Shown: positions 47,315-63,638 of the stretch, in pieces
Layout: the number at the start of each line of letters is the position of its first letter
Numbering within the stretch: position 1 is the stretch's first letter
NCBI RefSeq assembly: GCF_003315245.1
Contig: NZ_QNRT01000002.1
Span: forward strand, 1,224,206-1,288,205
Direction of reading: 5' to 3'
Length of the DNA stretch: 64,000 nt
Source: Arenicella xantha
GTDB taxonomy: Bacteria > Pseudomonadota > Gammaproteobacteria > Arenicellales > Arenicellaceae
The notes under the pieces: model-generated
Told to the model about the DNA's origin: nothing
What the model saw: only the letters and a program-made list of their open reading frames with translations
Databases searched by the model: none
Program-made: the position numbers and the translations under genes

Positions 47315-47329
47315 TAGTCAAATTGACTA
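47315..47329. promoter_or_regulatory. xylan-locus operator A
   Basis: Palindrome TAGTCA-AAT-TGACTA, perfect in both half-sites, 52 bases before the ATT of the decayed leader. It matches the sites at 50272, 61625 and 63056. The sequence AAAGAATGGTT about 15 bases later is shared with the site before the large TonB receptor. Confidence 0.7.
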
Positions 47330-47380
47330 TATTATGGCTATTATAAAGAATGGTTTTAGAATTCACTGAGGAGAACTACG

Positions 47381-47509
47381 ATTGCGAAGCCTAATTCAGC
47401 CAAATACCTGCGCGCAGCCGCTATTGCAGTTTTGTGTTTTGGCAACACCCGTTTAGCGTCAACGCTAGTAGCCCCCTTTGAAGCCACCGCGCAACGTTTG
47501 TATATGTAA
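47381..47509 (+). pseudogene. start-less remnant of a secreted protein gene
   Basis: An open frame of 42 residues begins at an ATT codon (47381) with an ideal ribosome binding site, GAGGAG, seven bases upstream. It reads IAKPNSAKYLRAAAIAVLCF then GNTRLAS, a clear signal-peptide-like leader, and stops at 47507. Operator A lies upstream. ATT is hardly ever used as a start; the simplest reading is ATG mutated to ATT in a gene that then decayed. The following 240 bases to the ThuA-like gene show no conserved coding frame, only short frames such as KGPDVDINIAIN. Confidence 0.55.
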
Positions 47510-47751
47510 GGGCCCGGATGTGGACATCAACATCGCAATAAATGCGGTTTCAGTAGTCGCTACCGATTACTTACTGTTTTAGGTTGGGGCCTCTCGCACA
47601 ATCTCGCAAGAGATGCCTTCGTTTCGTGTTCGAGCGGCCCTAATCTTTTTTCCAGTGGCAATGTTATTCTCAAATAACAGAAGCGTTAAGCACCGCTCAA
47701 TAAGCTAAATTTAGCAAGCACCTCCGCCACCAAGATTAATCACTTAAGCCG

Positions 47752-48561
47752 ATGATAGACCGCATGAAAAAACGACACTCACGCATCAAAACCGCCTTAT
47801 TCATCCTCTGTATTTCTAGCTCCCTCACCAGCACAATGTCAAACGCAAAACAATTTAAAGCGCTACTGTTTACTAAAACCGCCGGTTGGCATCATGAGTC
47901 GCTACTTGAGGGCGTGACTGCGGTACGGGAACTAGCTGATAAACATCATTTTGAGGTGGAGTGGCATGAAGACTCAACACGTATCAATGATGAAAACTTA
48001 GCACAGTTCCAAGTCATCATCTTTTTATCGACTACCGGCAACATCTTAAACGACGAACAAAGAGCATCGATGGAAAAGTTCATTCAATCAGGTAAAGGCT
48101 TTGTCGGCATCCACAGTGCTAGTGACACGGAATACAATTGGGACTGGTATGGAAAACTAATCGGCCGCCGATTTAAAATTCATCCACTGGTGCAGAGCGC
48201 CGAGGTTTCAATCGTAGACCGGGAATTTTATGGCCTCGAATTGTTTTCCGACACGTTTCTGTGGACCGACGAGTGGTACGACTTCGAGCCAGAAACGGTT
48301 CCCAATCTCAATTATTTATTGACCGTTGATGAACGCTCGTACGATACCCATTCTGACTGGGGCGACAATAAAACTGGCAATGGCATGGGTCAATTCCATC
48401 CGTTAGCTTGGTACCATCAATTTGATGGTGGCCGTTCATTCTACACCGCGTTGGGTCACCTACCCGCCGCCTACCTAGATAAGCGTTTCCAAGAACACCT
48501 TTACGGCGGAATCTATTGGGCCGCAACTGGCAAAAAACCACTCGCGCCGTTAGATAAATAG
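47752..48561 (+). CDS. secreted ThuA-like domain protein
   Basis: A 269-residue exported protein with a signal peptide (residues about 5-32, ending SNA-KQ) and a ThuA-like class I glutamine-amidotransferase-fold domain: FKALLFTKTAGWHHESLLEGV, VIIFLSTTGNILNDEQ, GKGFVGIHSASDTEYNW and the end GQFHPLAWYHQFDGGRSFYTALGH. ThuA-type proteins are associated with sugar oxidation or glycan uptake loci, but the biochemical role is not known. A second ATG at 47764 is an alternative start. It is the first intact gene of the xylan-locus side, closed by its own hairpin. Confidence 0.85.
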   Translation: MIDRMKKRHSRIKTALFILCISSSLTSTMSNAKQFKALLFTKTAGWHHESLLEGVTAVRELADKHHFEVEWHEDSTRINDENLAQFQVIIFLSTTGNILNDEQRASMEKFIQSGKGFVGIHSASDTEYNWDWYGKLIGRRFKIHPLVQSAEVSIVDREFYGLELFSDTFLWTDEWYDFEPETVPNLNYLLTVDERSYDTHSDWGDNKTGNGMGQFHPLAWYHQFDGGRSFYTALGHLPAAYLDKRFQEHLYGGIYWAATGKKPLAPLDK

Positions 48562-48606
48562 TACCCAACCAAACAAAATTCAACGCGCAACAAAATGTTA
48601 TTTTCG

Positions 48607-48640
48607 ATGAACCACTGCTAACAATGACAGTGGTTCATTT
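48607..48640 (+). terminator. hairpin after the ThuA-like gene
   Basis: A perfect 11-bp stem (48607-48617 with 48628-48638; ATGAACCACTG) around a 10-base loop, followed by only a few T (TT). Confidence 0.55.
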
Positions 48641-48749
48641 GAAAATCAGGCTAGCGCGCAATCCAGCTCCACCTTCATCTCCAAAAGTCGTTCTATCTCA
48701 CAAAGCTAGGGCTCTCCCCTGACATAAATTGATCACGTTCGGACCGCCG

Positions 48750-50180
48750 TTACTCGCTGCGAGCTTTGAGCTCGTCTTGAATCCTGATCATTTCGGCATT
48801 GGTTAAACGATAGCGAAAAGCAAAGAACAGCACCACAACCCCACAGGCCAGCGGAAACAATGTCATAAGCAATACGATGCCATCTAAGGTCATTGGGCTC
48901 TGCACCTGTTCAATTTTGTCAATCGGTTCTTGGTAACCGTAGCCAGCCAAAATCCAACCTAACAAAGACCCGCCAATTGCCGCCCCCAGTTTAAGCGCCG
49001 ATAAATGCCCAGAGAAAGTCATCGCCGTCGCGCGTTTTCGCGTTACGAATTCGCCCCAGTCGACACAATCTGCGGTCATCGCAAATACCAGAGAAATCAA
49101 GATAATGTGGAAAAAGCCCACCACGGTGTTTAAAAACAACGCCAACATCACCGCATCACGCGCAACAAAGTACAGCGCCAACATCGACGCCATCATCATT
49201 ATCGTTGCCATCTTAAACAGCCACGTTTTGCAAACTTTACGCGCCAATACTATTGTCATAATCGCGCCGACAATTGAGCCCAAAGTACCAATCGTCAAGA
49301 ATGCTGTACCCAGCTGAGCAGCATTGCAGGTGTCGTATGCCACCAACCACAATGAGATCACCGAGCCCGAGCCACACTCCAACACATATTTGGTGTAGTA
49401 GAGCGTTGCGCCGCCGCGCATTACAGCAATAAGCAACAGAAAAAATGTGGCCGCAGCGACAACCGCCCATTGTCGATTTGCCCGCAGTAGTGTTTTTATG
49501 TCGGTAATGATACCTAACACCATTTCACCAAACGTTTTTTCACTTCGGTCATCTACCGAAACCACACGTTCCTTGGTAGCAAGAAAACACATCACAAAGC
49601 AAATCAACGCCACTACCGACAGCACCGCCATGGCATAAGTAAATCCGATTTGGTCGTTACCGCCGCCCAAGCGATCGACTAAATAAAGTAGAGAAGAATT
49701 GACGATAAAGCTTCCAACCATCGCTAAAGAAAAGCGGTAGCCTTGAATCTCACCACGCTCAAGTGGATCTTTAGTCATCACACCACCGAGCGCACCATAC
49801 GGAATATTTACCGCGGTATAAGCGGTCATTAGCAAGGCATACGTTATGTATGCGTAAAGCAACTTGCCGCTCTGCGCTAAATCTGGTGTTGAAAAAGCAA
49901 TAACCGCACACAAGCCATACGGAATCGCGACCCAGATTAAATAAGGGCGGTACTTTCCCCATCGCGTGTTAGTGCGATCGGCAATGCCGCCCATAATAGG
50001 GTCAGTTACCATGTCAAACAGCCGAACCACCAACATTAAAGTGCCCGCCGCTGCGGCGGTGATACCGAAAATATCGGTATAGAAATACATCATGAAATTC
50101 AGAACAACCTGAAACACAATGTTGCTCGCGGTATCGCCAAGGCCATACCCTACCTTCTCCTTAAAACTCAAACTTGTCAT
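48750..50180 (-). CDS. GPH-family glycoside-pentoside-hexuronide:cation symporter
   Basis: A 476-residue, 12-helix inner-membrane transporter of the GPH family (MelB/XynP/XylT group) that takes up xylosides or xylo-oligosaccharides with sodium or protons. Clear motifs are FKEKVGYGLGDTASNIVFQV at the start, the acidic RLFDMVTDPIMGGIADRTNTRWGKYRPY (about 48-75) and the loop ALGGVMTKDPLERGEIQGYR. It is divergent from xylB with operator B in the shared gap, so both directions should respond to the same regulator. It links oligosaccharide import to the cytoplasmic GH43. Confidence 0.9.
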   Translation of the reverse strand: MTSLSFKEKVGYGLGDTASNIVFQVVLNFMMYFYTDIFGITAAAAGTLMLVVRLFDMVTDPIMGGIADRTNTRWGKYRPYLIWVAIPYGLCAVIAFSTPDLAQSGKLLYAYITYALLMTAYTAVNIPYGALGGVMTKDPLERGEIQGYRFSLAMVGSFIVNSSLLYLVDRLGGGNDQIGFTYAMAVLSVVALICFVMCFLATKERVVSVDDRSEKTFGEMVLGIITDIKTLLRANRQWAVVAAATFFLLLIAVMRGGATLYYTKYVLECGSGSVISLWLVAYDTCNAAQLGTAFLTIGTLGSIVGAIMTIVLARKVCKTWLFKMATIMMMASMLALYFVARDAVMLALFLNTVVGFFHIILISLVFAMTADCVDWGEFVTRKRATAMTFSGHLSALKLGAAIGGSLLGWILAGYGYQEPIDKIEQVQSPMTLDGIVLLMTLFPLACGVVVLFFAFRYRLTNAEMIRIQDELKARSE

Positions 50181-50271
50181 TATTATTCTCTAGGCAGAGC
50201 GTAGTCTGCGGTTTGGGTTGGTGTAAAACTGAGTAGTAAATTTGAGTTATAGTTTACATGATTAATTGTTA

Positions 50272-50286
50272 TATTCAATATGACTA
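50272..50286. promoter_or_regulatory. xylan-locus operator B
   Basis: TATTCA-ATA-TGACTA: one perfect half-site and one with a single mismatch, in the divergent promoter of the GPH symporter and xylBA genes, 60 bases before the xylB ATG. Matches operators A, C and D. Confidence 0.6.
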
Positions 50287-50345
50287 TATGATATTATCGC
50301 AACCGAATATAATCCTTAACCGTCTTGCAACATAGAGATATAAAA

Positions 50346-51830
50346 ATGAGAACCACGCTCGGCATCGATCTCGGTACCCAAAACATAAAAGTGATTTTTT
50401 ATGACTTCGAGCTACGGCAAACTGTTGCCAGCGCTTCTTCACCACTTAACCTTTATCAGGACGATTGTGGAACCGCTGAACAACAGGCGCATTGGTGGAC
50501 TAAAGCCCTACGTGATGCACTAAGCCGCATCCCACAAGCGGTTAAACAATCGGTAATTGGCATCGGCGTATCAGGCCAGCAACATGGCTTCGTACCATTA
50601 GATAAACATGGTGAAGTTCTAGCACCGGTGAAATTATGGTGCGACACTTCTACCGAAGCCGAATGCCAAGAGATAATGGAGCGAATGGGCGGCGTGCAAC
50701 GCTGTATTGAGCTGACCGGCAACAAGATTGTAACGGGCTACACGGCATCTAAAGTACTCGGCTTCAAACATCGCCATGCCGAACAGTACAAACAGTTAGA
50801 CACCATACTACTGCCACATGACTACCTTAACTTTTGGCTTACCGGCGAAAAGTGCATGGAGATGGGGGACGCTTCCGGCACCGGTTTCTTAAACGTAAAA
50901 ACCCGCGAGTGGTGCCCTGAAGTATTACAGGCAATTGACCCAGATCGCGACCTAACTAAATGCCTACCAACACCTCGCATAAATAACGAAATCATTGGCA
51001 GCATAAGCACTTTTGCGGCAGAAAAAACCGGTCTACCCGTAGGGACACCGGTCTCAATAGGCGGCGGTGACAACATGATGGGAGCGCTCGGCACGGGCAA
51101 TATAACGCCCGGCAATACCACCATTAGCCTTGGTACCTCCGGCACCGTTTTTGCCTACTCCGACCAAGCAATCATCGACGATCAAGGCAACATTGCGGCA
51201 TTTTGTTCCTCTACTGGTGGCTGGATGCCTTTGCTATGCACAATGAACTGCACGGTAACCACTGAATTGCTCAGGTCCATGTTAGATGTCAGCATCTCCG
51301 ACTTTGACAACACCATTGCGCTTGCTCCTGCCGGTTCCAATGGGGTCATCACACTGCCATTTTTTAATGGCGAACGTACACCAAATTTGCCGACCGCTAA
51401 AGGTTGTGTCCTCGGCCTTGATAGCCAAAACACTAACCGAGAAAACGTACTACGCTCCGGAGCCGAGGGCGCTACGTTTGCATTGAAATTTGGAATCGAT
51501 GAACTACACCGACTGGGGCTGACAACCCGGCAAATTGTACTCACTGGCGGCGCAACCAAAAGTGCGGTGTGGCGACAAATAGTCGCCGATATTACCGGCG
51601 TAGAAGTCAACGTTCTAAAACAGGACGAAGGCGCTGCTTTCGGCTCGGCCTTACAAGCACTGTGCGCCGTGCTTAACAAAGGTGCAATCAACCAAGCATT
51701 CCTAGGCGAACATTACATTATGGATCCGCAAATGCACTGCGAGCCAAGCATAGTAGCCGGTTCGGTCTATGCAGAACGGTATCAACAATATCTAAGCGCG
51801 GTGAAAGCTATCAGCGCGATCTATCAATAA
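50346..51830 (+). CDS. xylB: xylulokinase
   Basis: A 494-residue FGGY-family kinase that phosphorylates D-xylulose to xylulose 5-phosphate. Marks are LGIDLGTQNIKVIFYD (phosphate 1), GIGVSGQQHGFVPLD (about 82-96), the catalytic-region LLPHDYLNFWLTG, SIGGGDNMMGALGTG and the C-terminal QIVLTGGATKSAVWRQIVAD. The ATG at 50346 gives the typical start MRTTLGIDLG; the longer frame adds seven residues. It is followed 27 bases later by xylA, in the same operon. Confidence 0.95.
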   Translation: MRTTLGIDLGTQNIKVIFYDFELRQTVASASSPLNLYQDDCGTAEQQAHWWTKALRDALSRIPQAVKQSVIGIGVSGQQHGFVPLDKHGEVLAPVKLWCDTSTEAECQEIMERMGGVQRCIELTGNKIVTGYTASKVLGFKHRHAEQYKQLDTILLPHDYLNFWLTGEKCMEMGDASGTGFLNVKTREWCPEVLQAIDPDRDLTKCLPTPRINNEIIGSISTFAAEKTGLPVGTPVSIGGGDNMMGALGTGNITPGNTTISLGTSGTVFAYSDQAIIDDQGNIAAFCSSTGGWMPLLCTMNCTVTTELLRSMLDVSISDFDNTIALAPAGSNGVITLPFFNGERTPNLPTAKGCVLGLDSQNTNRENVLRSGAEGATFALKFGIDELHRLGLTTRQIVLTGGATKSAVWRQIVADITGVEVNVLKQDEGAAFGSALQALCAVLNKGAINQAFLGEHYIMDPQMHCEPSIVAGSVYAERYQQYLSAVKAISAIYQ

Positions 51831-51857
51831 TTTATTGCAAATCTCAGAGGCACTCAA

Positions 51858-53201
51858 ATGAACAGAACAGTATTCACCGGATACACCGAGTATTTTAAAG
51901 GTATCGACCAGATACGCTACGAAGGCAAGGAGTCGGATAACCCACTCGCATTCAAAGCCTACGACCCAAGCAAAGTCGTGGCAGGCAAAACCATGGAAGA
52001 ACATTTACGCTTTGCGGTCTGCTACTGGCATACCTTTTGTGGCGGCGGTGCTGATCCATTTGGCCCTGCTACGCGTGATCATGCATGGCTAACGGGGGCT
52101 AATGACATGGACATCGCGAAACAAAAAATGGATGCCGCATTTGAGCTATTTTCAAAGCTCAATGTACCATTTTATTGCTTCCATGACCGTGACATGGCAC
52201 CCGACGGCGGCTCTGTCGCCAAGAGCGAAGAGAACCTACAAGCCATGGTACAAGAGGCTAAAATTCGTCAAGCTGAGACCAATATCAACTTGCTTTGGGG
52301 TACTGCCAACGCCTTTACCGATCCGCGCTACATGAACGGCGCGTCGACTAATCCTAACTTTGATGTAGTTGCGCACGCTGGTGCTCAAGTCAAAGCTGCG
52401 CTCGACGCAACTGTCGAACTCGGCGGTCAAAACTATGTTTTCTGGGGCGGGCGCGAAGGTTATATCAGCCTATTCAATACCGACACCAAACGTGAACTTG
52501 AGCACATGGGGCGATTCTTAACCATGGCCAGAGACTACGGTCGCTCAATCGGCTTTGAAGGCACGTTCTTAATCGAACCGAAACCAATGGAGCCGACCAA
52601 GCATCAGTACGACTTCGATGCACAAACGGTAATCGGCTTTCTACGTGAACATAAGCTCGACGCCGACTTCAAATTAAACATTGAAGCAAACCACGCCACG
52701 CTAGCTGGCCATACCTTCGCCCACGAACTACAAATGTGTGCGGATGCCAATATGTTGGGTTCCATCGATGCCAATCGTGGTGACTACCAAAACGGTTGGG
52801 ACACAGACCAATTCCCAGTTGACATGTATGACTGTGCGCAAGCCATGATGGTCGTACTTCAAAGCGGTGGCTTTAAACACGGCGGGCTAAACTTTGACGC
52901 AAAGCTGCGTCGAGAATCCACCGACATCGAAGACTTCTTCATTGCACATATCGGTGGCATGGACTGTTTCGCACGAGGCTTGCTGATTGCCGATCACCTA
53001 ATTCAAAATGGCCAGGTCGACGCAATCAAACGTGCCCGCTACGCCAGCTTTGATGCCGGACAAGGTGCTGCATTTGAATCAGGCAAACTGTCGCTGGTGG
53101 ATTTACGTGACCACGCCCAAGCCCAAGGACTGCCAACCCCAGAAAGTGGCAAGCAGGAATTGGTTGAAAACATCATGAACGATGCCATGTTTAAGATCTA
53201 A
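51858..53201 (+). CDS. xylA: xylose isomerase
   Basis: A 447-residue metal-dependent isomerase that converts D-xylose to D-xylulose. Family features are [14 protein letters not shown] (about 56-69), [13 protein letters not shown] with the catalytic histidine and aspartate, [12 protein letters not shown], the metal ligand [31 protein letters not shown] and [20 protein letters not shown]. The length fits the longer class II group. It follows xylB in a two-gene operon. Confidence 0.97.
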
Positions 53202-53257
53202 GTGAGCCAACAAAGTATTGAGTCCGCCTCTCGATGAAGGTTCAATACTTAGCGAAG

Positions 53258-53286
53258 CTGGCGTGCCGCTAAGGCGCGCCAGTCTT
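53258..53286 (+). terminator. hairpin after xylA
   Basis: A 10-bp GC-rich stem with one G-T pair (53258-53267 with 53273-53282) and a five-base loop, followed by TCTTA. It has a poor T-tract. A second, wider inverted repeat (AAGTATTGA at 53213-53221, TCAATACTT at 53242-53250) lies just before it. Confidence 0.5.
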
Positions 53287-53408
53287 ACATCGTCAGCGAG
53301 TCTGTGGTAACGTAGCCGGCATTAAGCTACACCGTAGATTACTAGCCTCCAATGCTCAAACAGAGTTTGGAAAATATCCTATAGCACCACTCAACTGACA
53401 GACCGACC

Positions 53409-54110
53409 GTGAAACAGAACACTCCATTAGCAAAACCAAGCGGCCCGCATAACCACACCGTGGACAATGTCATTTTTGGGTGTGAAGAAGACACACTCGA
53501 AGTATTTTTGGTGCAGCATGGCGAAGGTAAAAGTCGCGGTGAGTGGGGTCTACCTGGTGACTGGATGCGTGAGGAAGAGAGTCTCGAACAAGCCGCTACT
53601 CGCACGCTCAAAGAGCGCACCGGCATTACCGATGTTTACCTTGAGCAGCTGCACACGTTTAGTGACGTTGACCGCTACCCATTTGAGCGCGTGCTAACCA
53701 CCGCCTTCTTTGCGTTAATTCGACCGGATGCCGTAAAAACCATTGTCGGCGAAACAGAACTTGATGCCGCATGGTTTGACATTAACAAACTGCCACCACT
53801 TATTTTCGACCATAAATCAATTGTCGAAAAAGGTATCGAGCATTTGAAGCACAAAGTTCGACATGAACCGATTGGCTTCAACCTGCTACCTAAAAAGTTC
53901 ACGCTGCTACAACTGCAATGCCTCTACGAGGCTGTCTTAGGAATTAAGGTAGATAAGCCAAATTTTCGTCGTAAGATGAAGAAAATGCAGCTACTCGTCT
54001 CACTCGGCGAAAAGCAAACCGGAGTGGCGCACCGCGCAGCCAACTTGTATCGATTTGACGAGCAGGTGTACCGTAAACTCAAAACCAAAGGCTTTGTATT
54101 CGAGCTTTAA
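53409..54110 (+). CDS. NUDIX-domain transcriptional regulator (NrtR/AraR-like)
   Basis: A 233-residue protein with an N-terminal NUDIX-fold domain (about 15-150) and a C-terminal winged helix (about 165-233; FTLLQLQCLYEAVLGI, FRRKMKKMQLL). The NUDIX box is degenerate: the second glycine of LPGG is D51, and in RExxEE two glutamates are replaced (T66, R70). It therefore probably binds a sugar or nucleotide without hydrolysing it, as in NrtR-type regulators, which control NAD metabolism or pentose catabolism. It is the only DNA-binding protein in the xylan locus and the natural candidate for the TAGTCA-N3-TGACTA operator. Confidence 0.85.
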   Translation: MKQNTPLAKPSGPHNHTVDNVIFGCEEDTLEVFLVQHGEGKSRGEWGLPGDWMREEESLEQAATRTLKERTGITDVYLEQLHTFSDVDRYPFERVLTTAFFALIRPDAVKTIVGETELDAAWFDINKLPPLIFDHKSIVEKGIEHLKHKVRHEPIGFNLLPKKFTLLQLQCLYEAVLGIKVDKPNFRRKMKKMQLLVSLGEKQTGVAHRAANLYRFDEQVYRKLKTKGFVFEL

Positions 54111-54211
54111 TTCCAGTGTGCTTTAGAAACAGTCTCGCTGGGCTTGTCCGCCACGCTAATTGAACGGCGTAGATTACTCTACGCCCTCCCTATCTTTACT
54201 CAAACCAAGCG

Positions 54212-55861
54212 TTACTCACCGAATTCTTGGTAGTCAAAGAACTCGAAATCTGCGGGTAAACCGCTGCCAGCTAAGTCTTGGCAACACATGCCAACAAAGG
54301 CACCGGTAAAACTTTCTCCTTCGCCTTTCCCAGCTTCATCCGACACCACGCTGTAGTCAAGCTGCAACGGTAGCTCTTGCCAGTTTTCACCGTCTTGCGA
54401 CCAAGCGTAAACCAACGAACCATAATTCACCGAACACTGCAGGTAGATCGCGCCCTGATCAGGCAACACGACCTCGCCATTTTCAACTACTGCCGCACCA
54501 TTTTCGGCACCACTTAATGGAAAAACAAAATCTTGCGATGGGTCACCTTCACAACTCATTATTGCCAGCACACGCTGCCCATGGTCGTTCAGCGTAATGT
54601 ATAGATAGTGATACTTATGCGCATTGTAGTAATTCACTAAACCCGCTAACTGTAAAAAACTGGTCGGCTGAAATTCGATTTTGGTTGCTGCCTTAAACAC
54701 AAATGCTTGTTGACGGCGCGCTACTATCGACTGCTGAAACAGACTTCCCAACGACTCCCTGCCGTACAACCTGAGAAAACCGGGGCGGTCCTGCAAGCTG
54801 AATAACGGTTCAGTAAATGAAGTTCTAAGCCACTGAAAATCTATCGGCAACGTCGGCTCAACAAACTCAGTTCGAACCGGGGTTGCCGGCCACGGATGCA
54901 AATCAATCTTGGGGCCAGCAACGGTTAAATCGGGCTGGTTGCCACCATTGGATAATCGCAACCATCCATCGTCGGTCCAATATGCCGGTTGAATACCGGT
55001 TTCACGCCCCATTGGGCACCGCCGCATGTCAGTTTGGTTGATTGGCCGACCACACAGGTGTACGACATATACTTCGCCGTCCGGAGTCTCGACAAAATCA
55101 CCATGTCCGGCACGTTGTAATTCAAGCTCAGGATTATCCTTCGCCGTTAGCAAGTACCCTGCTGGATCCACCTCGTAAGGCCCGCTTAATGAACGCGATC
55201 GCGCCATTGTCATAACATGATCATAGCCAGTGCCGCCTTCAGCCGTCAGCAAATAGTAGTAACCGTTACGCTTATATAAATGCGGCGCTTCGGTCAAGCC
55301 CATTTCAGTACCACGAAAGATATTGGTAACGGGCCCGATTAATTTTTGCTCACTCGCGGAGTACTCTTGCAGAAAAATACCGCCAAATGGGTTGTGATTG
55401 GGTCGGTAGTCCCAAACCATATTCACCAACCATTTACGGCCGTCGTCGTCATGAAATAGCGACGGATCAAAGCCACTGCTATTCAAATAAACAGGCGCCG
55501 ACCACTCACCATCGACCGTCGCACACGTGGTTAAGTAATTATGCGGATCTTTAATGCCATCAAAACGTTTTACATCGGTGTAGACCAAATGAAATAAGCC
55601 ATCATGGTAGCTCAAACAAGGCGCCCAAATACCACAAGAATCGGGGTTACCGGTCATCTCTAATAAATCAGACCGATTTAATGGATGTGACACCAACCGC
55701 CAATTCACCAAATCCTTGGAATGGTGAATTTGAACACCGGGGTACCATTCAAACGTTGATGTCGCAATATAATAATCGTCGTCTACGCGAACAATAGAAG
55801 GGTCCGGGTTAAACCCTGGAAGAATTGGATTTTGAATATTGGTTGGCACGGAAATATCCAT
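54212..55861 (-). CDS. glycoside hydrolase family 43 beta-xylosidase
   Basis: A 549-residue inverting glycosidase. The five-blade catalytic domain (about 10-315) has the base in GFNPDPSIVRV, WAPCLSYHDGLFHLVYT, the pKa-tuning FDPSLFHDDDGRKW and the acid in GLTEAPHLYKR. A C-terminal beta-sandwich (about 335-549), as in XynB-type GH43, follows. No signal peptide is present, so it acts in the cytoplasm on imported xylo-oligosaccharides, releasing xylose for XylA. It follows the GH10 gene, probably in one operon. Confidence 0.92.
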   Translation of the reverse strand: MDISVPTNIQNPILPGFNPDPSIVRVDDDYYIATSTFEWYPGVQIHHSKDLVNWRLVSHPLNRSDLLEMTGNPDSCGIWAPCLSYHDGLFHLVYTDVKRFDGIKDPHNYLTTCATVDGEWSAPVYLNSSGFDPSLFHDDDGRKWLVNMVWDYRPNHNPFGGIFLQEYSASEQKLIGPVTNIFRGTEMGLTEAPHLYKRNGYYYLLTAEGGTGYDHVMTMARSRSLSGPYEVDPAGYLLTAKDNPELELQRAGHGDFVETPDGEVYVVHLCGRPINQTDMRRCPMGRETGIQPAYWTDDGWLRLSNGGNQPDLTVAGPKIDLHPWPATPVRTEFVEPTLPIDFQWLRTSFTEPLFSLQDRPGFLRLYGRESLGSLFQQSIVARRQQAFVFKAATKIEFQPTSFLQLAGLVNYYNAHKYHYLYITLNDHGQRVLAIMSCEGDPSQDFVFPLSGAENGAAVVENGEVVLPDQGAIYLQCSVNYGSLVYAWSQDGENWQELPLQLDYSVVSDEAGKGEGESFTGAFVGMCCQDLAGSGLPADFEFFDYQEFGE

Positions 55862-55946
55862 ATGGATTAGGTAATTATTAGTAGCAAATCGAAGTAACGA
55901 TTATATCGCTTTGTAGTCACAAAGACCATTTAGTAAGTCGGCAAAT

Positions 55947-57092
55947 TCAAGTTTGTTTAAGCCTTCTGATCGCATGATAGGCCGCTTTTGGCTTAGCCTC
56001 ACGATCAAATAACAGTGGGTAATTTTGTCGCCCCTTAACCGGCCAATCATTTTTCCACGAATGTGCATCTGTCACGCCCCACGTGGTGACTCGCTCAATC
56101 ACATCGCGATGTTTCACAAACAAGGCAAACAGCTTGGCATAACGTTCAGCAAGTTTCTCCTGCACCATTGCCGGTAGCTCGTCAGGGTACGGATTAAGCT
56201 TTTCGGAATACTCAAAATTTGTTGATATCTCAGCTCCCATGTAATCGAAAGCCTTCGGCAAAACATCCACATCCAACTCGGTGAAATGAAGCTTTAACCC
56301 CATTTCAGCATAGGTTTCAATAGACTTTTCGATTTCATCCAACTCAGGATCTTCCAGCGAGTAGTGAGCTTGAAAGCCAACACCGTTTATCGGCACTCCA
56401 CGATCTAAATAGTCAGCCAAAACGCCGGTCAAAAAACCTCGCTTAGCCGGATAGTGCATATTGTAATCATTATAGAGTAGCTCAGCATTCGGGTCGGCAG
56501 CCGCCGCTGTACGAAATGCATGCTCCATAAAATCCTTACCGAGAATGTTAAACCATGGGCTTTTTCGCCACGATCCATAGCCGTTATCACTGACCACTTC
56601 ATTCACTACATCCCAAGTATTGACCTTGCCTCGGTAGCGATCAACCAGTGTATTAATATGATTTTCCATTCGGCCTAACAGCGCCTTTGCAGTTATCGGC
56701 AAACCCTCGTCACCGGTAAAAACCGAGGCCGGGATCTGCGAATGCCAGACCAAAGTATGCCCAAGAATGTGTTTGTTATGCTGGGTACCGAACTCAATAA
56801 ACTTATCCGATGCTTCCCAGTTCCATTGATTTTCTGCGGGATGAATCTCCTCCCACTTCTGGCAATTCTCAGCAGTAACGGAACTGAACTCTCGATCGAT
56901 CAAGCCAAGCAATTGTTGATCGTCTTGCATTAAGGTGTCCGTTGAGATGGCCGCACCAACGAAGAAATCGTCCTTAAATGCGTCAGCGAGTCCAGCCGCT
57001 TTACTGGCTTGCTGCATCGCCGTTACGCGTGCACTGGCAAACATTGGCAACAGTGCACTGGCACCCAAAAAAGTACGTCTTTTCATATTCAT
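55947..57092 (-). CDS. glycoside hydrolase family 10 endo-1,4-beta-xylanase, Tat-exported
   Basis: A 381-residue GH10 enzyme that cuts internal beta-1,4-xylosidic bonds with retention. The N-terminal MKRRTFLGASALLPMFASAR (starting at residue 3) is a twin-arginine signal. The fold shows FSSVTAENCQKWEEIHP, HTLVWHSQIP, the acid/base glutamate in WDVVNEVVSDNG and the nucleophile in LHFTELDVDV, then VTTWGVTDAHSWK. There is no carbohydrate-binding module, which fits action on soluble oligosaccharides in the periplasm. It lies between the JmjC-like gene upstream and GH43 downstream on the same strand. Confidence 0.95.
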   Translation of the reverse strand: MNMKRRTFLGASALLPMFASARVTAMQQASKAAGLADAFKDDFFVGAAISTDTLMQDDQQLLGLIDREFSSVTAENCQKWEEIHPAENQWNWEASDKFIEFGTQHNKHILGHTLVWHSQIPASVFTGDEGLPITAKALLGRMENHINTLVDRYRGKVNTWDVVNEVVSDNGYGSWRKSPWFNILGKDFMEHAFRTAAAADPNAELLYNDYNMHYPAKRGFLTGVLADYLDRGVPINGVGFQAHYSLEDPELDEIEKSIETYAEMGLKLHFTELDVDVLPKAFDYMGAEISTNFEYSEKLNPYPDELPAMVQEKLAERYAKLFALFVKHRDVIERVTTWGVTDAHSWKNDWPVKGRQNYPLLFDREAKPKAAYHAIRRLKQT

Positions 57093-57119
57093 AATAATAA
57101 TAGTTTTAGTAATCGCGCC

Positions 57120-58172
57120 CTATTTAAGACGCATAGATTTATATAAATACTGCTTTATCTTGGCATAACGAGCTGGAATCATCTTTCCTAGCACGCCGTG
57201 ACGATGCTCAGGAATGTGTTCAGCAGGGTCACCATCTGGCCGAAACACATAGTGATCAAAAAATGCACGCCACGCTAAGCGTTGCTCTGGTGGCAAAGCA
57301 CTAACGGTCATCAAGCCATGAATCATCGCTTCATAAGCTGCATTTCCACCAAAACGAGAATTGGCCCACCAATAATTAAGCAGTACATTAAAGCCACCTG
57401 ACGACGCCACGTGATGCCACCACAAACTCGGTATAAACAACACATCACCAGGCCCTAACTCCGCAACCACAGCGTGCTGCATCGCCGTTTTAAAACGAGG
57501 GTACTTGTCTAAATCAGGCTGCCTTAGCGAAACCAAACTCGCCGGACGCCCTGCGAGGGTATAGTCGATCGGCCCAATATAGAGATTAGCTATCTGCTCT
57601 GGCGGAAATAAAGTAAACCTGCGACGCCCAGCAATAACACAGGCTAAGTTGTCTGAGACGTCGTAATGCGTGGCTACCTCAATGTCGTTTCCCAACCATA
57701 TTCTTGGCACAATAGATTTATCCAACCAAGGGAACCGATTGTGCTCAGTAAAATTTTTCAGCGCTTTATGCGCTTCAACTGACCCGCAATAATAATCCGC
57801 GTCGCCATGTAGTGAAGCATCGAATATCTGCTTCAATGCCGTTCCAAAATCTGCCGCCACGGCACTGAATGTGACATCTTGCAGATCCTCCGTATAGGTA
57901 AGTTCACCGCGCCATTTTTTATCCAAAGAATAAAGCTCAGTCGCATGTGGCTGAGCTCGGTCATGGAGATATTTATAGGCGTTATCTGGCCCCTTTACAG
58001 CTTCATGTACTGCTGGCCATTCGGCGGCAAAACCGCGCAAAACAGCTGGTTGTCCAGCTGGCAGTATCTGTTCAATCAAGGTATCTACAGAAGCATCCGA
58101 GTATTCCGTCACCGCAGGCAATGAAGCCGAGCTTAGAGGTTCGTTATTGTTAGTAGATTTCGACATTGCCAT
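57120..58172 (-). CDS. JmjC/cupin-like 2-oxoglutarate oxygenase-fold protein (PF13621)
   Basis: A 350-residue cupin-8/JmjC-type protein. An Fe(II) site is suggested by the HxD in VATHYDVSDN and the late histidine in PSLWWHHVASSGGFNVLLNYWW; the cupin strand RRRFTLFPPEQIANLYIGPIDY is typical. These proteins often sit next to TonB-dependent receptors in marine glycan-uptake loci; their substrate is unknown. It lies 244 bases downstream of the receptor gene and 27 before GH10, pointing to a role in the xylan response. Confidence 0.85.
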   Translation of the reverse strand: MAMSKSTNNNEPLSSASLPAVTEYSDASVDTLIEQILPAGQPAVLRGFAAEWPAVHEAVKGPDNAYKYLHDRAQPHATELYSLDKKWRGELTYTEDLQDVTFSAVAADFGTALKQIFDASLHGDADYYCGSVEAHKALKNFTEHNRFPWLDKSIVPRIWLGNDIEVATHYDVSDNLACVIAGRRRFTLFPPEQIANLYIGPIDYTLAGRPASLVSLRQPDLDKYPRFKTAMQHAVVAELGPGDVLFIPSLWWHHVASSGGFNVLLNYWWANSRFGGNAAYEAMIHGLMTVSALPPEQRLAWRAFFDHYVFRPDGDPAEHIPEHRHGVLGKMIPARYAKIKQYLYKSMRLK

Positions 58173-58329
58173 ACACTCAGTTAAACATATTCCAGCCCAT
58201 ACTAGCGGTCGTTAGGCAACTCGCTCAAGCCATTACCGTTTCATCTTCAGCAATCACAATTTTCACTATTTGTGACTAATGGTAAAGTCAGTCGCGCGAT
58301 ATGAGAAAAATTAAGCTAATTAGTGTCTA

Positions 58330-58372
58330 AAGAAAATTCGGAGGGCCCTGTGCTTATCACACGGAGCCCTCC
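58330..58372 (-). terminator. terminator of the large TonB-receptor gene
   Basis: A hairpin with a GC-rich outer stem (GGAGGGC 58340-58346 with GCCCTCC 58366-58372) and a partly paired inner part, followed on the minus strand by GAATTTTCTTT. It separates the receptor from the JmjC-like gene. Confidence 0.7.
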
Positions 58373-58416
58373 GCAAGGCTAGGAGTAAAGAGTAATGCTA
58401 AGGAGTAAAGTACTAA

Positions 58417-61400
58417 TTAAAACGAACCAGACAGCGTTACCGTAAAGCGTCGGTCATTCACAAAGTATGAACGCGGCGCTAATAACAAGTCTTGATTCAC
58501 CGCTGAGAACAAGCGATTGGTCGCATTGCTCAAGTTGTTCGCTTCAAGTCCAATCTTAAAATTGTCGTTGATTTGATAACTTATGGATGCATCCACTTGT
58601 TCAGTCGAACCAGAGTAGTTCGGTGCAAAAGTGATCACGTCACGAGTGGTCAACAAATACTCAGATCGATAGTTATAGGCAACGCGTGCAGACACCGGAC
58701 CTTTTTCAAACATCAATACGAAGTTGATCGTATCCTCTGAGAGACTTTCCAACGGTAGACCATCAAACACACCGAGGTCATTAGGAACTTGACCACCTTC
58801 CGGCGTCAACGCATTTTCAGAAGATGAACTTCCATCACTGTCAACATACGTGTAATTAGCTTGAATACCAAAGCCATCCCATGGTGCGGGTAGCATATCG
58901 TAGAACTGCGTATACGCTATCTCGAAACCTTGAATGGTCGCATCTTCACCGTTAACCGGACCACTAACCAACACATCACGAGTAACATCATTATTGGTCA
59001 CCGTTAGCACGCTAGGCCCAAAGCGGAAAAAACCTTCAGCATCTTTTCTGAAAATCGACCCAGTTAACGAACCCGTGTCTGAAAAGTACCACTCCAACGA
59101 TGCATCAAAGTTATTCGACTCAATTGGGTTCAAGCTTGGATTACCACCACCAGCGTTATAGCCATTGATGCGGGCATTGATGACCGGCGAAGTTGGATCA
59201 TTTGGATCTAAGTTCTCAACGATCAACTCACGTCCAATTCCCAATGAGTTTCGTTTGTCTCGAAGATCAGGCAATGAAATCGCTTGAGAGAAGGCAAATC
59301 GAGCCATTAAGTTCTCAGTTAACTCATACTTGATATTAAAGCTTGGTAGTAATTTTGAGTAACTATCTTTGACCGTATTTTGCAGCACCTGACCACCGTT
59401 GGCGGTAAATGCAATGTCTTCAGGAGACAAGAATTGCACCAAGTTTTCTGATATGGCAGACGGAAAACTAACACCGCCGGTCAAATCCCAATCGTATTTA
59501 ACGTAGCGTAAACCCACATTACCGGAGTAACGGTTGCCATTTAAGTCGCCGCCAAAATTTAGCTGTACATAAGCCGCTTGATTGGTTAACTCCGACACTG
59601 AGACTTCGTTAGGTAAAAAGAGTGTGCCCGCCACTGCGCCAGGGCGATTTGCCAACGAGCTCCAGGTTGAACCTGTGCTTTGAAATGGGCTAATTCGCGA
59701 GTTGTATTGTCCGTAGTTTTCAATGTCAACCAAACTCATAGCCGGGAAAACAAATGCTTGATCGCCTGAAAACTGGCTACCATTTGAAAAGTCATCAAAA
59801 CGATACTCTTCAACCAAGGATGCATCCTGACCAATTATTTGATCAACCGTGGTCGCTCCGCCATTCCAAGTTTCGGAAACAGCGCCCCAGTTATAAGAAG
59901 ACTCACGAATAGTATTTTCACGATTAACTAGGCGAACACCAGCTTCAACGCTTTCAAAGAAATCGCCTTCTAGCTCAAATTCAAAATCTAAGTTTGCCGC
60001 AACACTTTCAGCTTCATCATCTTCAGCGTGATCCATTGCCGATCGAAAGTAAAATGCACTTGGGTCAGTTAACAAGGCACGATCGCCACCACGCCCAAGA
60101 AACTCTGCCGATGGAATGCCACCACTCGTGTCTAACGCCAACTCAGAATAGAAATTGTACATTGCGGAAACATCTAACTGATCAAACTCAGCATCAATCA
60201 ACTGTAGTCCACCAGACACTTTAAGACGGTCACTAACATCATGTGAAACAGTCAGCGAAAAGTCTTGAATGGTTGATGCTTCGCGGTTATCGCGACTGTA
60301 GGTTAAGTATCGACCACCGCCGTTACCAGCACCGTTAGATAAAATTCCCGATTGAAAGAAATTGTCCGCGCCATAAGTAAAGGTAGAACCTTCAAATGGT
60401 TGCGCTAAGGCTGTACCCTGACCAGGTCCAACAGCAAACGGTTGATCTGGGTATTCGATCGTGCGCTCTTCCCAATTAATTTCGGAATCAGAATAAATAT
60501 ATTCTGCAGTCACCTCGGTTGCTTCATCCGGGCTTCTCCACTGCAGACTCATCGCACCACCAGTCCGATCGCGGTCAAACTCTTGGCGACGTAAGTTAGC
60601 GCCTTGCGGTACGAACACTACTTGATCTTCATCACCGAATACCGCTGTATCAGCGCCAGGCCCACGTTGGTAGTGATTGTAAAGCTGCACGCCATCGGCA
60701 CGAGATTTCAGGTTGGCCGTCGAGGCGTTAATCAAGAAGCCAAATTCACCAGCGTCATTCTCCCAACGCGTGCTGTAAGTGGCGGATAAAGCCGGAGTTA
60801 CTTCATCAATATCATCAGAGTAACTGGCTTTCGCGGTGAATGCATAAAACGAATCTTCTTCGCTGTCGAATGGCTTACGCGTCAGAATATTGATCGTACC
60901 AGACACGCCACCTTCGATCATCGAGGCTGTTTGGTTCTTGACCAACTGCACACCACCGACCAACTCTGGTGGAATGTCTTGGAAACTAAGTCCATTGTCA
61001 TTGTTCGCGGCAAATGCATCGCGGCCGTTAAATTCGCTTCGCGTTTGAGTTAAACCGCGAATCACTACGCCAGACCCTTCCACTGAGAAGTGATCGGCGT
61101 CGTTTGATGCGGCAAAACGCTCGATTGACACACCCGGTAGACGCTGAATCGCTTCTAGAACACTTTTGTCCGGTAGCGAATTAATATCGGTGGCTGAGAT
61201 CGCATCAACAACCGTATCAGAGTTACGCTTAATATCTTGTGCGCGACTCAAGTTCACCTTAGTTCCGTAGACGGTGACTTCTTCAAGCACCTCATTTCCA
61301 ACCGGCTCTGCACTAGTCGACTCTTGAGCGATGGCACCCGTAGAAGCCGCTAGAACGCACAACGAAACTAACGTTCGTCGGAACTCTGGCTTAGCCTTGA

Positions 61401-61434
61401 GGTTCGCTCTTTGCGTTTGATTTTCATTTACCAT
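58417..61434 (-). CDS. TonB-dependent receptor for oligosaccharides (xylan type)
   Basis: A 1005-residue outer-membrane transporter. The ATG at 61434, with AGGTAT about 11 bases upstream, gives a signal peptide after a charged N-region (RRTLVSLCVLAASTGAIAQ-ES); the longer frame to 61545 is not signal-like. The TonB box region LEEVTVYGTKVN precedes the plug (about 60-185: LPDKSVLEAIQRLPGVSIERF, GVVIRGLTQTRSEFNGRDAF, GGVSGTINILTRKPF). The barrel ends in a terminal phenylalanine (FTVTLSGSF). Length and plug style match marine TonB receptors of carbohydrate loci. It should import xylo-oligosaccharides. Operator C lies about 190 bases upstream. Confidence 0.93.
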   Translation of the reverse strand: MVNENQTQRANLKAKPEFRRTLVSLCVLAASTGAIAQESTSAEPVGNEVLEEVTVYGTKVNLSRAQDIKRNSDTVVDAISATDINSLPDKSVLEAIQRLPGVSIERFAASNDADHFSVEGSGVVIRGLTQTRSEFNGRDAFAANNDNGLSFQDIPPELVGGVQLVKNQTASMIEGGVSGTINILTRKPFDSEEDSFYAFTAKASYSDDIDEVTPALSATYSTRWENDAGEFGFLINASTANLKSRADGVQLYNHYQRGPGADTAVFGDEDQVVFVPQGANLRRQEFDRDRTGGAMSLQWRSPDEATEVTAEYIYSDSEINWEERTIEYPDQPFAVGPGQGTALAQPFEGSTFTYGADNFFQSGILSNGAGNGGGRYLTYSRDNREASTIQDFSLTVSHDVSDRLKVSGGLQLIDAEFDQLDVSAMYNFYSELALDTSGGIPSAEFLGRGGDRALLTDPSAFYFRSAMDHAEDDEAESVAANLDFEFELEGDFFESVEAGVRLVNRENTIRESSYNWGAVSETWNGGATTVDQIIGQDASLVEEYRFDDFSNGSQFSGDQAFVFPAMSLVDIENYGQYNSRISPFQSTGSTWSSLANRPGAVAGTLFLPNEVSVSELTNQAAYVQLNFGGDLNGNRYSGNVGLRYVKYDWDLTGGVSFPSAISENLVQFLSPEDIAFTANGGQVLQNTVKDSYSKLLPSFNIKYELTENLMARFAFSQAISLPDLRDKRNSLGIGRELIVENLDPNDPTSPVINARINGYNAGGGNPSLNPIESNNFDASLEWYFSDTGSLTGSIFRKDAEGFFRFGPSVLTVTNNDVTRDVLVSGPVNGEDATIQGFEIAYTQFYDMLPAPWDGFGIQANYTYVDSDGSSSSENALTPEGGQVPNDLGVFDGLPLESLSEDTINFVLMFEKGPVSARVAYNYRSEYLLTTRDVITFAPNYSGSTEQVDASISYQINDNFKIGLEANNLSNATNRLFSAVNQDLLLAPRSYFVNDRRFTVTLSGSF

Positions 61435-62074
61435 TTTTATTGATACCTGTGTAAACAGTTTTTGTATGTGAGGAAACTGCCGACCCAACAAACCCATGAT
61501 CCAATTGGTCGATCCAGCATGTTTGCAATCACCTCCTCTCCCCAACTCAAAGAACGCTTAAAAACAGCTCAACCAAAGCTCAAATTCCCACTCAGGTTAC
61601 TGCTTAATTTTTAACCATTCTTTGTAGTCATGTTGACTATAAAGGGGATTCATAAAGCTGTCAACAAAAAGAATACGACGCGGAGAACGGTGCCTGATTC
61701 AAAATTTTCCACCTAACAATTGTCAAAAATATCTCTATAAGCCTTTGATTTATAAACCTTAATAGAGACTCCAGACTGGACAGTCGGCGTAAAATAAATC
61801 GATTACCACGCTAAGCAAAAATAGTGTGTATTGAAATTTGTGATCAACATGTGTCGACATTTACCCATGCAGTAAACATACCTAAGCGGCGTTTTGAAAC
61901 TCAGCGCTTGAGCAAAAAGACAGTCAATCACTCACGTCAATTGGAGAACATACAGCCATAAAACCGACCGTAGTTCTCACAAAAAAAAGTAGAATTTCGC
62001 ACATGCATAATTTCGCCGTCTGCACTGACATAGGGCCCATGCAAACTCCTCCCATCGTGCAAAGTGAAGGTAAT
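61435..62074. other. intergenic region with operator C and no other gene
   Basis: About 640 bases between the receptor and transaldolase genes, both on the minus strand. It holds operator C and the receptor's leader. From 61640 to 62074 I see AT-rich DNA without coding frames, repeats or RNA hallmarks. Confidence 0.6.
61625..61639. promoter_or_regulatory. xylan-locus operator C
   Basis: TAGTCA-TGT-TGACTA, both half-sites perfect, about 191-205 bases before the TonB receptor ATG. On the minus strand it is followed by AAAGAATGGTT, as at operator A. Confidence 0.7.
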
Positions 62075-63013
62075 TTAGGTGGTCAGCATTTCAGCAAATA
62101 TTTGCTCTAAGAGTTCCTGATCACGAGCAAAACCACGAATTCCTTCTGCTAGCTTTTCGGTTGCCATTGGATCTTGATTCATCTGCCAGCGAAACTCCGT
62201 TTCACTCAACGCTAAACCAGGCAGACTCGGTGTTTCGGTTGGAGGAGTTAGCTTTCTCATTAACTCGCCATTATCTTTCTCAAGCTGTTCTAAGTAGGTC
62301 GGCGAAATAGTTAGGTAATCGCAACCAGCAAGACTTTCTATTTGTCCGGTATTACGAAAACTAGCGCCCATCACAATCGTTTTATATCCGAACTCTTTGT
62401 AATACTGGTAAATCTGCGCGACTGACTTAACCCCCGGGTCAGCATCACTACTGGCATTAAATTGGTCGGTATTAGCTTGATACCAATCCAATATGCGACC
62501 AACAAAAGGCGAAATTAGGGTCACCTTTGCTTCGGCACATGCCACCGCTTGGGCAAAGCCAAATAGCAATGTCAGATTACAGTGTATCGACTCTCTCTCT
62601 AGTCGCTCGGCCGCCTTAATGCCTTCCCACGTAGACGCAATTTTGATCAACACCCGTTCGGCATTAATCCCACGCTTTTCGTATTCGCTGATTATTTTGT
62701 GCGCTTTGGCTACGGTCGCGTCAGTATCAAATGACAGCCTAGCGTCAACCTCAGTAGAAATCCGTCCAGGTATCAACTTAAGAATGGCGCAACCGACTTC
62801 TACCGAAAACTGGTCAACCGCATCGCCGACGCTACCGTCACTAAGATCTAAGGCACGCTGCACCATCGCGGCAAAACGTGAATCGCGCGCCACGCTCAGC
62901 AACAAGGAGGGATTGGTGGTGGCGTCTTGCGGATGATACTGACGTATCGCATCGATATCGCCTGTGTCGGCAACCACCGTAGTCATTTTTCTAAGCTGTT
63001 GTAATTTATTCAT
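62075..63013 (-). CDS. tal: transaldolase
   Basis: A 312-residue TalB-type transaldolase of the pentose phosphate pathway, transferring dihydroxyacetone between sugar phosphates. Marks are [21 protein letters not shown] (about 30-40), the Schiff-base lysine in [12 protein letters not shown] (about 128-139), [17 protein letters not shown] and [11 protein letters not shown]. Its presence in the xylan locus with operator D 43 bases upstream suggests induction with xylose use, where it handles the pentose 5-phosphate flux from XylB. Confidence 0.95.
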
Positions 63014-63055
63014 TGGACTTGCTCAAATGGCATGATTAATCTAAACTGACCTATA

Positions 63056-63070
63056 TAGTCTATATGACTA
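63056..63070. promoter_or_regulatory. xylan-locus operator D
   Basis: TAGTCT-ATA-TGACTA: one perfect half-site and one mismatch. It lies 43 bases before the transaldolase ATG and 59 before the divergent small exported protein gene, so it can serve both. A TATAAT follows at 63072 for the plus strand. Confidence 0.6.
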
Positions 63071-63128: not shown

Positions 63129-63638
63129 ATGACCATTAAAAACTCGTTCCTCCCTTATCTTTCGCTGGTCGTTCTTTTTGCTTCAATGGGCAACGCCCAA
63201 GCGCGGGTAGAATCATTATTCCTCGAGCGCGTCGTCACTGATGGTCGCGATAACTTTTATGAGGTCGCAATCAAATGCAACAAAGACAATGAGAAACGCA
63301 AAATTTTGCGTGAAACCAGTCTGCAAACACCTTGGTGCACTCGCGGTTCAAACTCTATTTGCAACGATGATAAATACAAACTCGCACGGCAACTTTGCGC
63401 CGAAACTGACACTGAGCAAACACCGTCACCGTCGCAATTAGTGGACAATCAAGAAATCAAACCAGCTCAAATTTCAGCAGTGATCGAGAACCAATCAAGT
63501 GCCATTAATGTTAAGGAATTGCGCGCAGAACTACTTCTGATTGAAGAGCAGCGGATCTTAATCGAACAACGCCGCATCGAGCTATCAATGCGTGAGCTGG
63601 AGCTAAAAAGATCTTCCTTAGTGGTATCGCAACCTTAG
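63129..63638 (+). CDS. exported small protein with C-terminal coiled coil
   Basis: A 169-residue protein with a signal peptide (about 1-25, ending AQA-RV). The mature part has four cysteines (C49, C69, C77, C90), probably disulfide-bonded, and a C-terminal helix rich in Glu/Leu/Arg (about 128-162, ELRAELLLIEEQRILIEQRR) that should form a coiled coil. I do not recognise the family. It is divergent from transaldolase with operator D between, and followed 64 bases later by the GH11 gene, so it is likely co-regulated with xylanase secretion. Confidence 0.8.
   Translation: MTIKNSFLPYLSLVVLFASMGNAQARVESLFLERVVTDGRDNFYEVAIKCNKDNEKRKILRETSLQTPWCTRGSNSICNDDKYKLARQLCAETDTEQTPSPSQLVDNQEIKPAQISAVIENQSSAINVKELRAELLLIEEQRILIEQRRIELSMRELELKRSSLVVSQP

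Follow-up and report, generated by a model that had tools for sequence, protein, structure and literature searches.

Among the described regulators of pentose use, the one closest to the system treated here is BtAraR of Bacteroides (BT0354; PDB 5bs6, 5dd4, 5ddg and 5deq), which combines a Nudix domain with a winged-helix domain. Its residues Lys179, Arg180 (which intercalates), Asn181, Lys184, Lys204 and Arg205 contact the DNA and define the GTGT motif of its operator, and the protein is released by L-arabinose, which is held by Arg34, Arg86 and His131 (PMC4666351). We have analysed a counterpart in a 64,000-nucleotide stretch of Arenicella xantha (assembly GCF_003315245.1, contig NZ_QNRT01000002.1, positions 1,224,206 to 1,288,205; the whole stretch is called the window), in which the palindrome TAGTCA-N3-TGACTA recurs in the promoter gaps of a xylan/xylose locus. 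A sequence-only reading of the window had proposed that the palindrome marks a xylan/xylose regulon, that it can serve as an operator to search for, and that the protein encoded at 53409-54110 is the regulator; the comparative evidence supports each of these proposals. Very probably the palindrome is the operator of this locally encoded NrtR-family Nudix/winged-helix protein, which would repress the xylan and xylose genes until a pentose binds. The comparison of genomes shows that the motif is conserved as a promoter element of xylan genes and co-occurs with the regulator and with its type of recognition helix; beyond this, we infer direct binding, a dimeric state, repression and the effector.

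The A. xantha system shares with BtAraR the domain composition, an impaired Nudix box, a 21-bp semipalindromic operator, and a regulon that joins sugar catabolism to polysaccharide hydrolases and TonB-dependent uptake; two of the ligand residues, Arg86 and His131, are retained. It differs in having Pro for the intercalating Arg180, Arg for Lys184 and His for the ligand residue Arg34, in carrying TA(G/T)T where the AraR operator has GTGT, in its association with xylose rather than arabinose genes, and in its occurrence in Gammaproteobacteria. An NrtR-family AraR and a predicted XylR have been described in Bacteroides (PMC3878776, PMC4666351). BtXylR (BT0791; PMC3878776 Table 2, PMC4666351) is of the same family, has the same predicted sugar and is clustered with xylose genes; judged by its published description, it differs in that the regulon here includes xylanases and a transaldolase, and the 2015 paper (PMC4666351) reports its orthologues from Bacteroidetes alone. 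NAD-type NrtR, such as SoNrtR of Shewanella (PDB 3gz5/3gz6), has the same domain architecture and family fold, whereas it is described as controlling NAD genes and sensing ADP-ribose (PMC4666351), has other recognition-helix residues and lies on a separate branch. XylRA of the Vibrio beta-1,3-xylan loci likewise places a whole marine xylan locus under xylose-responsive control, but it is described as resembling E. coli XylR and acting positively (PMC12125979). None of the papers among the literature matches listed treats a regulator of xylose or xylan use of the NrtR type in Gammaproteobacteria, although RegPrecise may already hold such a prediction; a term search of a 2024 review of hemicellulase regulation (PMC10766802) gave no mention of NrtR or Nudix, and neither is mentioned in a study of carbohydrate regulons in mat bacteria (PMC5507952). 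For xylan use, the present system would add a regulator with its operator and regulon in a group whose xylan regulators, in the literature consulted, were of the AraC, LacI or two-component type.

The palindrome and its distribution

A scan of the window placed the palindrome without mismatch at 47315 and 61625 and with one mismatch at 50272 and 63056, exactly as the sequence-only reading had listed them. The promoter gaps are also as it had described them, except that the site at 63056 additionally faces a glycoside hydrolase (GH) family 11 xylanase gene (start 63702) behind the small exported protein. Two extra copies with two mismatches lie at 55914 and 59347. The six window copies with at most two mismatches compare with 1.78 expected from 100 shuffles, of which one reached six. 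Across the 4,436,813 bases of the own genome the pattern with at most one mismatch was counted 18 times, versus 13 for the control, in which it is read backwards; the only two perfect copies are those at 47315 and 61625, both in the xylan locus. The 14 copies outside the locus correspond to the background level, for which reason they were rejected as extra regulon members; 11 fall within predicted open reading frames (ORFs) and three in gaps, and they score 1.3-17.6 on the matrix described below, versus 22.9-30.8 for the four locus sites. Copies scattered among unrelated genes at background frequency had been named beforehand as what would speak against a regulon: the outside copies do occur at background, yet they are mostly ORF-internal and lower-scoring, apart from two high-scoring ORF-internal sites taken up below. 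A possible exception is the outside copy C2:593192 (score 17.6), which lies upstream of a gene for a secreted protein without a Pfam family.

Alignment of the window sites with those of relatives extended the motif to a 21-23-bp palindrome, (g)TTATA(G/T)TCA-N3-TGA(A/C)TATAA(c), with the half-site form TTATAGTCA-N3-TGACTATAA. When both strands of 16 aligned sites are counted, T-7, A-6 and T-4 are present in 32 of 32, C-3 in 31 and A-8 in 30, and position -5 is occupied by G 23 times and by T nine times; the apparent mismatch at 50272 belongs to a form that the motif regularly takes, TA(G/T)TCA-N3-TGA(A/C)TA. The exact form TAKTCANNNTGAMTA occurs three times in the own genome, always within the locus (control 0). 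Exact TA(G/T)TCA-N3-TGA(A/C)TA was found 20 times (control 3) in the six genomes of the family that encode a close homologue of the regulator gene, nrtR, and 13 times (control 8) in the other 15; two of the four exact copies in one genome without nrtR, G006, were opened and both are ORF-internal. Allowing one mismatch, ATAKTCANNNTGAMTAT, which has one base more on each side, has nine copies in the own genome, four of them in the locus (control 1). That four of nine fall in 15.8 kb has a Poisson P of about 4e-8, for a pattern partly learned from the locus itself.

The matrix test made use of no window site. Eleven sites, all from other genomes, were made into a 23-bp matrix; run over the 64 kb, it gave ranks 1-4 to the sites at 50272, 47315, 61625 and 63056, in this order (scores in the table). 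Rank 5 scored 12.1, and 60 Markov shuffles gave a mean best score of 11.5 and a largest of 19.5. When the matrix was applied to stretches left out of it, the sites came first in L029 (4/4) and L030 (2/2) of the related genome G014, and a site took the top place in L031, L034, L035, L037 and L089.

A close nrtR homologue (at least 59% identity) is present in six of 21 family genomes, which are the same six that have xylA. In all six the gene lies in the xylA cluster, next to xylA in the window genome (G000) and G014 and separated from it by one transporter gene in the other four, and comparison of the orthologous promoters, which the sequence-only reading had suggested, revealed that a site precedes the xyl operon in every one. 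Among 109 genomes of the order xylA occurs in seven; in the seventh, G040, a close nrtR is missing and the 3.4 kb scanned yielded no site (best score 1.9). In G014 the sites have remained with tal, the TonB receptor gene and xylP/xylB despite a rearranged gene order: tal and the receptor gene are divergent in G014 and in tandem in the window, and sites accompany both. One 44.6-kb contig of G014 holds six sites with at most one mismatch, one between xylP and xylB, two between tal and the TonB receptor gene, and the others before a transketolase-like ORF (named by eye), the likely start of the first gene of a halogenase-type operon, and a gene for a GH10 xylanase with a CBM4_9 carbohydrate-binding module. 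A seventh site on this contig precedes a GH8-CBM4_9 gene (26.9), and a second xylB of G014 has its own site (L136, 26.0).

The motif also locates xylanase genes elsewhere in the relatives' genomes. Twenty-nine further pattern matches, none seen by the matrix beforehand, were opened in G010, G013, G014, G015 and G017 (for G017 only part of the extended-pattern matches, taken from the matches listed); 28 are on contigs other than the main nrtR contig, and one, L133, is on it. Eight score at least 20 and none of these lies inside an ORF, L140 overlapping the first codons of an unrecognised frame. Seven of the eight adjoin GH8, GH3, GH16, GH10, GH43, GH5 or the second xylB, six of them on contigs without the close nrtR; the linked one is the GH8. 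The other 21 matches score below 20 and 16 of them are inside ORFs, among them L141 (1.1) and L149 (0.5). GH11 occurs in two of the 21 family genomes, the window genome (63702) and G017, where it stands behind a perfect site on a contig without the close nrtR; the G017 identification rests on a Pfam match of 2.9e-19 for the matched part, the whole ORF having given none. Outside the family, a contig of a distant metagenome-assembled genome (L026) has its single strong site (25.9) in the gap that separates the divergently oriented xylBA and nrtR. This contig (PBTY01000017.1) is labelled Rickettsiales and its genes look Bacteroidota-like; a mislabelled bin or lateral transfer is possible.

The regulator and its recognition helix

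The protein encoded at 53409-54110 matches PF21906 (1.8e-27), PF19368 (5.7e-16) and PF00293 (1.1e-12), all over the cut-off, with PF00293 at residues 18-138 and PF21906 at 156-216, which is the NrtR-family architecture. Its nearest solved structure is BtAraR (5bs6, 1.2e-47), followed by SoNrtR (8e-26). The Nudix box (GX5EX7REUXEEXGU) is impaired in that RTLKERTGI stands in place of REUXEEXGU and two glutamates are replaced. The NCBIfam equivalog identity NtrR was rejected, since the protein reaches 123 bits, far below the cut-off of 400. In a tree of 27 proteins the regulator falls into a clade of nine. Seven members are encoded in xylA clusters (G000, G014, G017, G010, G015, G013 and L026), one lies on a short G014 contig, and one, L025, is encoded beside GH43 and sugar transporter genes, with no xylA in the surrounding 17 kb. 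BtAraR groups next to this clade (support 97/91) and SoNrtR stands apart on a separate starred branch, which suggests that the regulator is closer to BtAraR than to NAD-type NrtR; this is a lead rather than proof, since the branches of BtAraR and SoNrtR are long and the placement is thereby unsure.

Identity with AraR proper is ruled out by the residues K, P, N, R, H, R at the DNA-contact positions and H, R, H at the ligand positions. The His at the Arg34 position is present in seven of eight homologues of the order, and the exchange by itself is therefore no mark of xylose. Since xylA is the constant partner of nrtR, the effector may be guessed to be D-xylose or an early catabolite. No NAD gene was recognised beside the strong sites, and the genes by most weak sites lie outside the annotated set.

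The six residues at the BtAraR DNA-contact positions are identical in all nine clade members, and Pro and Arg at 180/184 are also found in two Catenovulum proteins and in Persicobacter. Outside the family, but within the order or class, twelve homologues (L042-L049 and L110-L113) all have Arg/Lys at 180/184. Near nrtR in each of these 12 loci lies TAGTGT-N7-ACACTA, nine times exactly and three times with one mismatch, a sequence absent, even with up to one mismatch allowed, from the eight xyl stretches (the window and seven xyl-locus stretches); conversely, TAKTCA-N3-TGAMTA with at most one mismatch occurs in only one of the 12. Pro/Arg helices go with TAKTCA-N3-TGAMTA and Arg/Lys helices with TAGTGT-N7-ACACTA, a double dissociation. 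The araR of B. finegoldii, which is of the Arg/Lys type, has AGTGT-N7-ACAC sites before the ara operon, and when the operators are aligned in register AraR's GTGT falls on the TA(G/T)T of the xylan operator. The 12 Arg/Lys loci point to a separate and apparently uncharacterised regulon.

From these pairings we lean, with little more than even confidence, towards co-evolution of operator and recognition helix: a clade of xylose repressors with the Nudix fold, present in Gammaproteobacteria and in Bacteroidota-like genomes and marked by Pro for Arg180 and Arg for Lys184, would have shifted its operator from TAGTGT-N7-ACACTA to TTATA(G/T)TCA-N3-TGA(A/C)TATAA and would act as a genome-wide xylan switch covering GH3, 5, 8, 10, 11, 16 and 43, TonB uptake, xylBA, tal and the transketolase-like gene of G014. 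The change in the helix would be the cause of the change in the operator. The natural pair of operators, TAGTGT with Arg180/Lys184 helices and TA(G/T)TCA with Pro/Arg helices, offers a handle on the unusual arginine intercalation of BtAraR.

Promoter geometry and mode of control

At the TonB receptor gene the -10 box of a promoter-like TTGACA-17-TATAGT (11/12 matches) overlaps the palindrome, and the receptor gene of G014 has TTGACG-17-TATAGT at the same offset. A site over the -10 box implies the geometry of a repressor. In the proposed mechanism a dimer of the regulator, one half-site per subunit, would be seated on the xylan and xylose promoters, and at the TonB receptor it would cover the -10 box and block RNA polymerase. 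The controlled units would be xylP; xylBA and probably nrtR; TonB receptor-cupin8-GH10-GH43; tal; the exported protein-GH11 unit behind the 63056 site, through which the GH11 gene at 63702 presumably belongs to the regulon; and the promoter of a decayed xylanase. The regulator would be released when a pentose, with D-xylose or an early catabolite as the likeliest candidate, binds to the catalytically dead Nudix pocket, and breakdown, uptake, xylose catabolism and the entry step into the pentose-phosphate pathway would be switched on together.

That the regulator binds these sites and yet activates, or both activates and represses, is unlikely. At xylB, xylP and tal no promoter anchors the site, which would leave room for an activator, but the -10 box of the TonB receptor is overlapped in exactly the same way in both A. 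xantha and G014, and PMC4666351 describes NAD-type NrtR as repressing and L-arabinose as a negative effector of BtAraR. Less probable still is a second possibility, that the palindrome serves another regulator, for example of the LacI, AraC or Crp type, encoded elsewhere, while the Nudix protein controls something else. E. coli XylR is of the AraC type. Xylan and xylose regulators already known include the AraC-type XylRA of Vibrio (PMC12125979), the hybrid two-component type of Cellvibrio and the LacI-type XylR (PMC10766802). Against such a regulator stand the presence of nrtR in the xylA cluster in six of six family genomes and in L026, an operator type that tracks the recognition-helix residues of the Nudix protein, and the agreement of the motif with the AraR operator in register and in its length of 21 bp (PMC4666351). 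That the palindromes are chance or structural sequences, such as terminators or AT-rich promoter DNA, can hardly be entertained: AT-richness and the 14 background copies elsewhere would suit it, but the window-free ranking, the conservation at equivalent promoters through rearrangement and the xylanase genes at the relatives' further sites contradict it.

Several observations weigh against repression by the Nudix protein through the palindrome. Two ORF-internal sites of the own genome score 20.6 and 22.5, near the weakest locus site (22.9), which means that the matrix by itself separates imperfectly, and the AT-rich motif in itself favours intergenic gaps. The negative control of a xylA-bearing genome without close nrtR is limited to one, G040. 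Homologues of the Pro/Arg type in L025 and Persicobacter (L127) have no good site nearby (best 8.4 and 8.5), and the Catenovulum loci L124 and L125 carry weak gap sites only (18.4 and 15.5). No clear sigma-70 promoter that would place the site was found at xylB, xylP or tal, and the region holds 15 promoter-like matches where shuffles give 23.8.

The genes for the TonB receptor, cupin8, GH10 and GH43 are collinear in the window and G014, with a strong site before the receptor gene only. The sequence-only reading had GH43, GH10 and the JmjC gene (cupin8) without a good copy and possibly read from the receptor promoter. Expression from the receptor promoter is indeed favoured by this arrangement, and none of the three has a strong site, but GH43 has a weak one at 55914-55928. 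None of the 6310 other overlapping segments of equal length reaches its score (12.1), and 167 of 20,000 gap shuffles do; for the G014 counterpart, L030:12213 (16.0), the figures are 0 of 1912 segments and 27 of 20,000 shuffles. The half-site TGACTA at 58270, also put forward earlier, falls outside the top 15 matrix hits in the window and was rejected as an operator of cupin8-GH10-GH43. A strong hairpin at 58339-58373 may damp read-through from the receptor promoter, and a different strong hairpin lies behind the receptor gene in G014; partial read-through into cupin8-GH10-GH43 is plausible.

Features of the locus and minor observations

Table. Operators, genes and other elements of the xylan/xylose locus (window coordinates)
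Feature	Coordinates	Strand or context	Evidence
Operator 1 (perfect)	47315..47329	before decayed reading frame and thuA	matrix 24.3
Operator 2	50272..50286	gap xylP (-) / xylB (+)	matrix 30.8; equivalents in 5/5 other xylA-bearing family genomes
Operator 3 (perfect)	61625..61639	overlaps -10 box of TonB receptor promoter	matrix 23.1
Operator 4	63056..63070	gap tal (-) / exported protein-GH11 unit (+)	matrix 22.9
Weak candidate operator	55914..55928	before GH43	matrix 12.1, rank 5; position matched in G014
Promoter-like TTGACA-17-TATAGT, TonB receptor gene	61636..61664	-	11/12 matches
Regulator, Nudix + NrtR/AraR winged-helix domain	53409..54110	+	Pfam, BtAraR structure match
xylB xylulokinase	50325..51830	+	ORF from TTG; ATG at about 50346
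xylA xylose isomerase	51858..53201	+	TIGR02630 4.3e-202
GPH-family sugar:cation symporter, xylP-like	48750..50180	-	TIGR00792
TonB-dependent receptor	58417..61545	-	TIGR01782; ORF from TTG, ATG at 61434
Cupin-8/JmjC-like protein	57120..58172	-	domain search
GH10 xylanase	55947..57092	-	domain search
GH43 beta-xylosidase-type enzyme	54212..55861	-	domain search
tal transaldolase	62075..63013	-	domain search
Small exported protein, first gene of presumed GH11 unit	63129..63638	+	no Pfam family
GH11 xylanase	63702..64000	+	extends past window end
Remnant like C-terminal end of GH10-CBM4_9 xylanase, two frames	47483..47558	+	behind signal-peptide-like start
ThuA-like protein	47752..48561	+	domain search
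Hairpin between TonB receptor and cupin8 genes	58339..58373	-	minimum free energy -26.6 kcal/mol for 91 nt, z -2.65

A decayed frame (47360-47570) follows the perfect 47315 site. It has a signal-peptide-like start and then a stretch that aligns, in two frames, with the C-terminal end of the GH10-CBM4_9 xylanase from G014 (tblastn E 0.006, obtained in a tiny search space). A search of the own genome with this xylanase returned the local GH10 as the sole match. The original gene of the 47315 site was probably, with moderate confidence, a xylanase lost by internal deletion; today the site could serve thuA, 430 bp further on. A hairpin between xylA and nrtR (53225-53320, z -1.33) is weaker than that behind the TonB receptor gene.

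Palindrome copies at L009:1501 and L090:3620, the latter perfect, lie near an apparently equivalent gene pair in two genomes (ORFs with like starts); they are outside xylan genes, have no TATA flanks and score 13.3 and 10.7. The L102 site scores 9.6 and is within an ORF according to the ORF table. On two plasmids of Catenovulum adriaticum (L124 and L125) two nrtR-like paralogues stand beside GH43 genes; one is also near xylanase genes, with fusA and a pgk-epd-tkt set downstream. In G014 (L029:1172-6397), operator-led genes inside the xylan regulon include those for tryptophan-halogenase-family proteins, a cupin and thuA.

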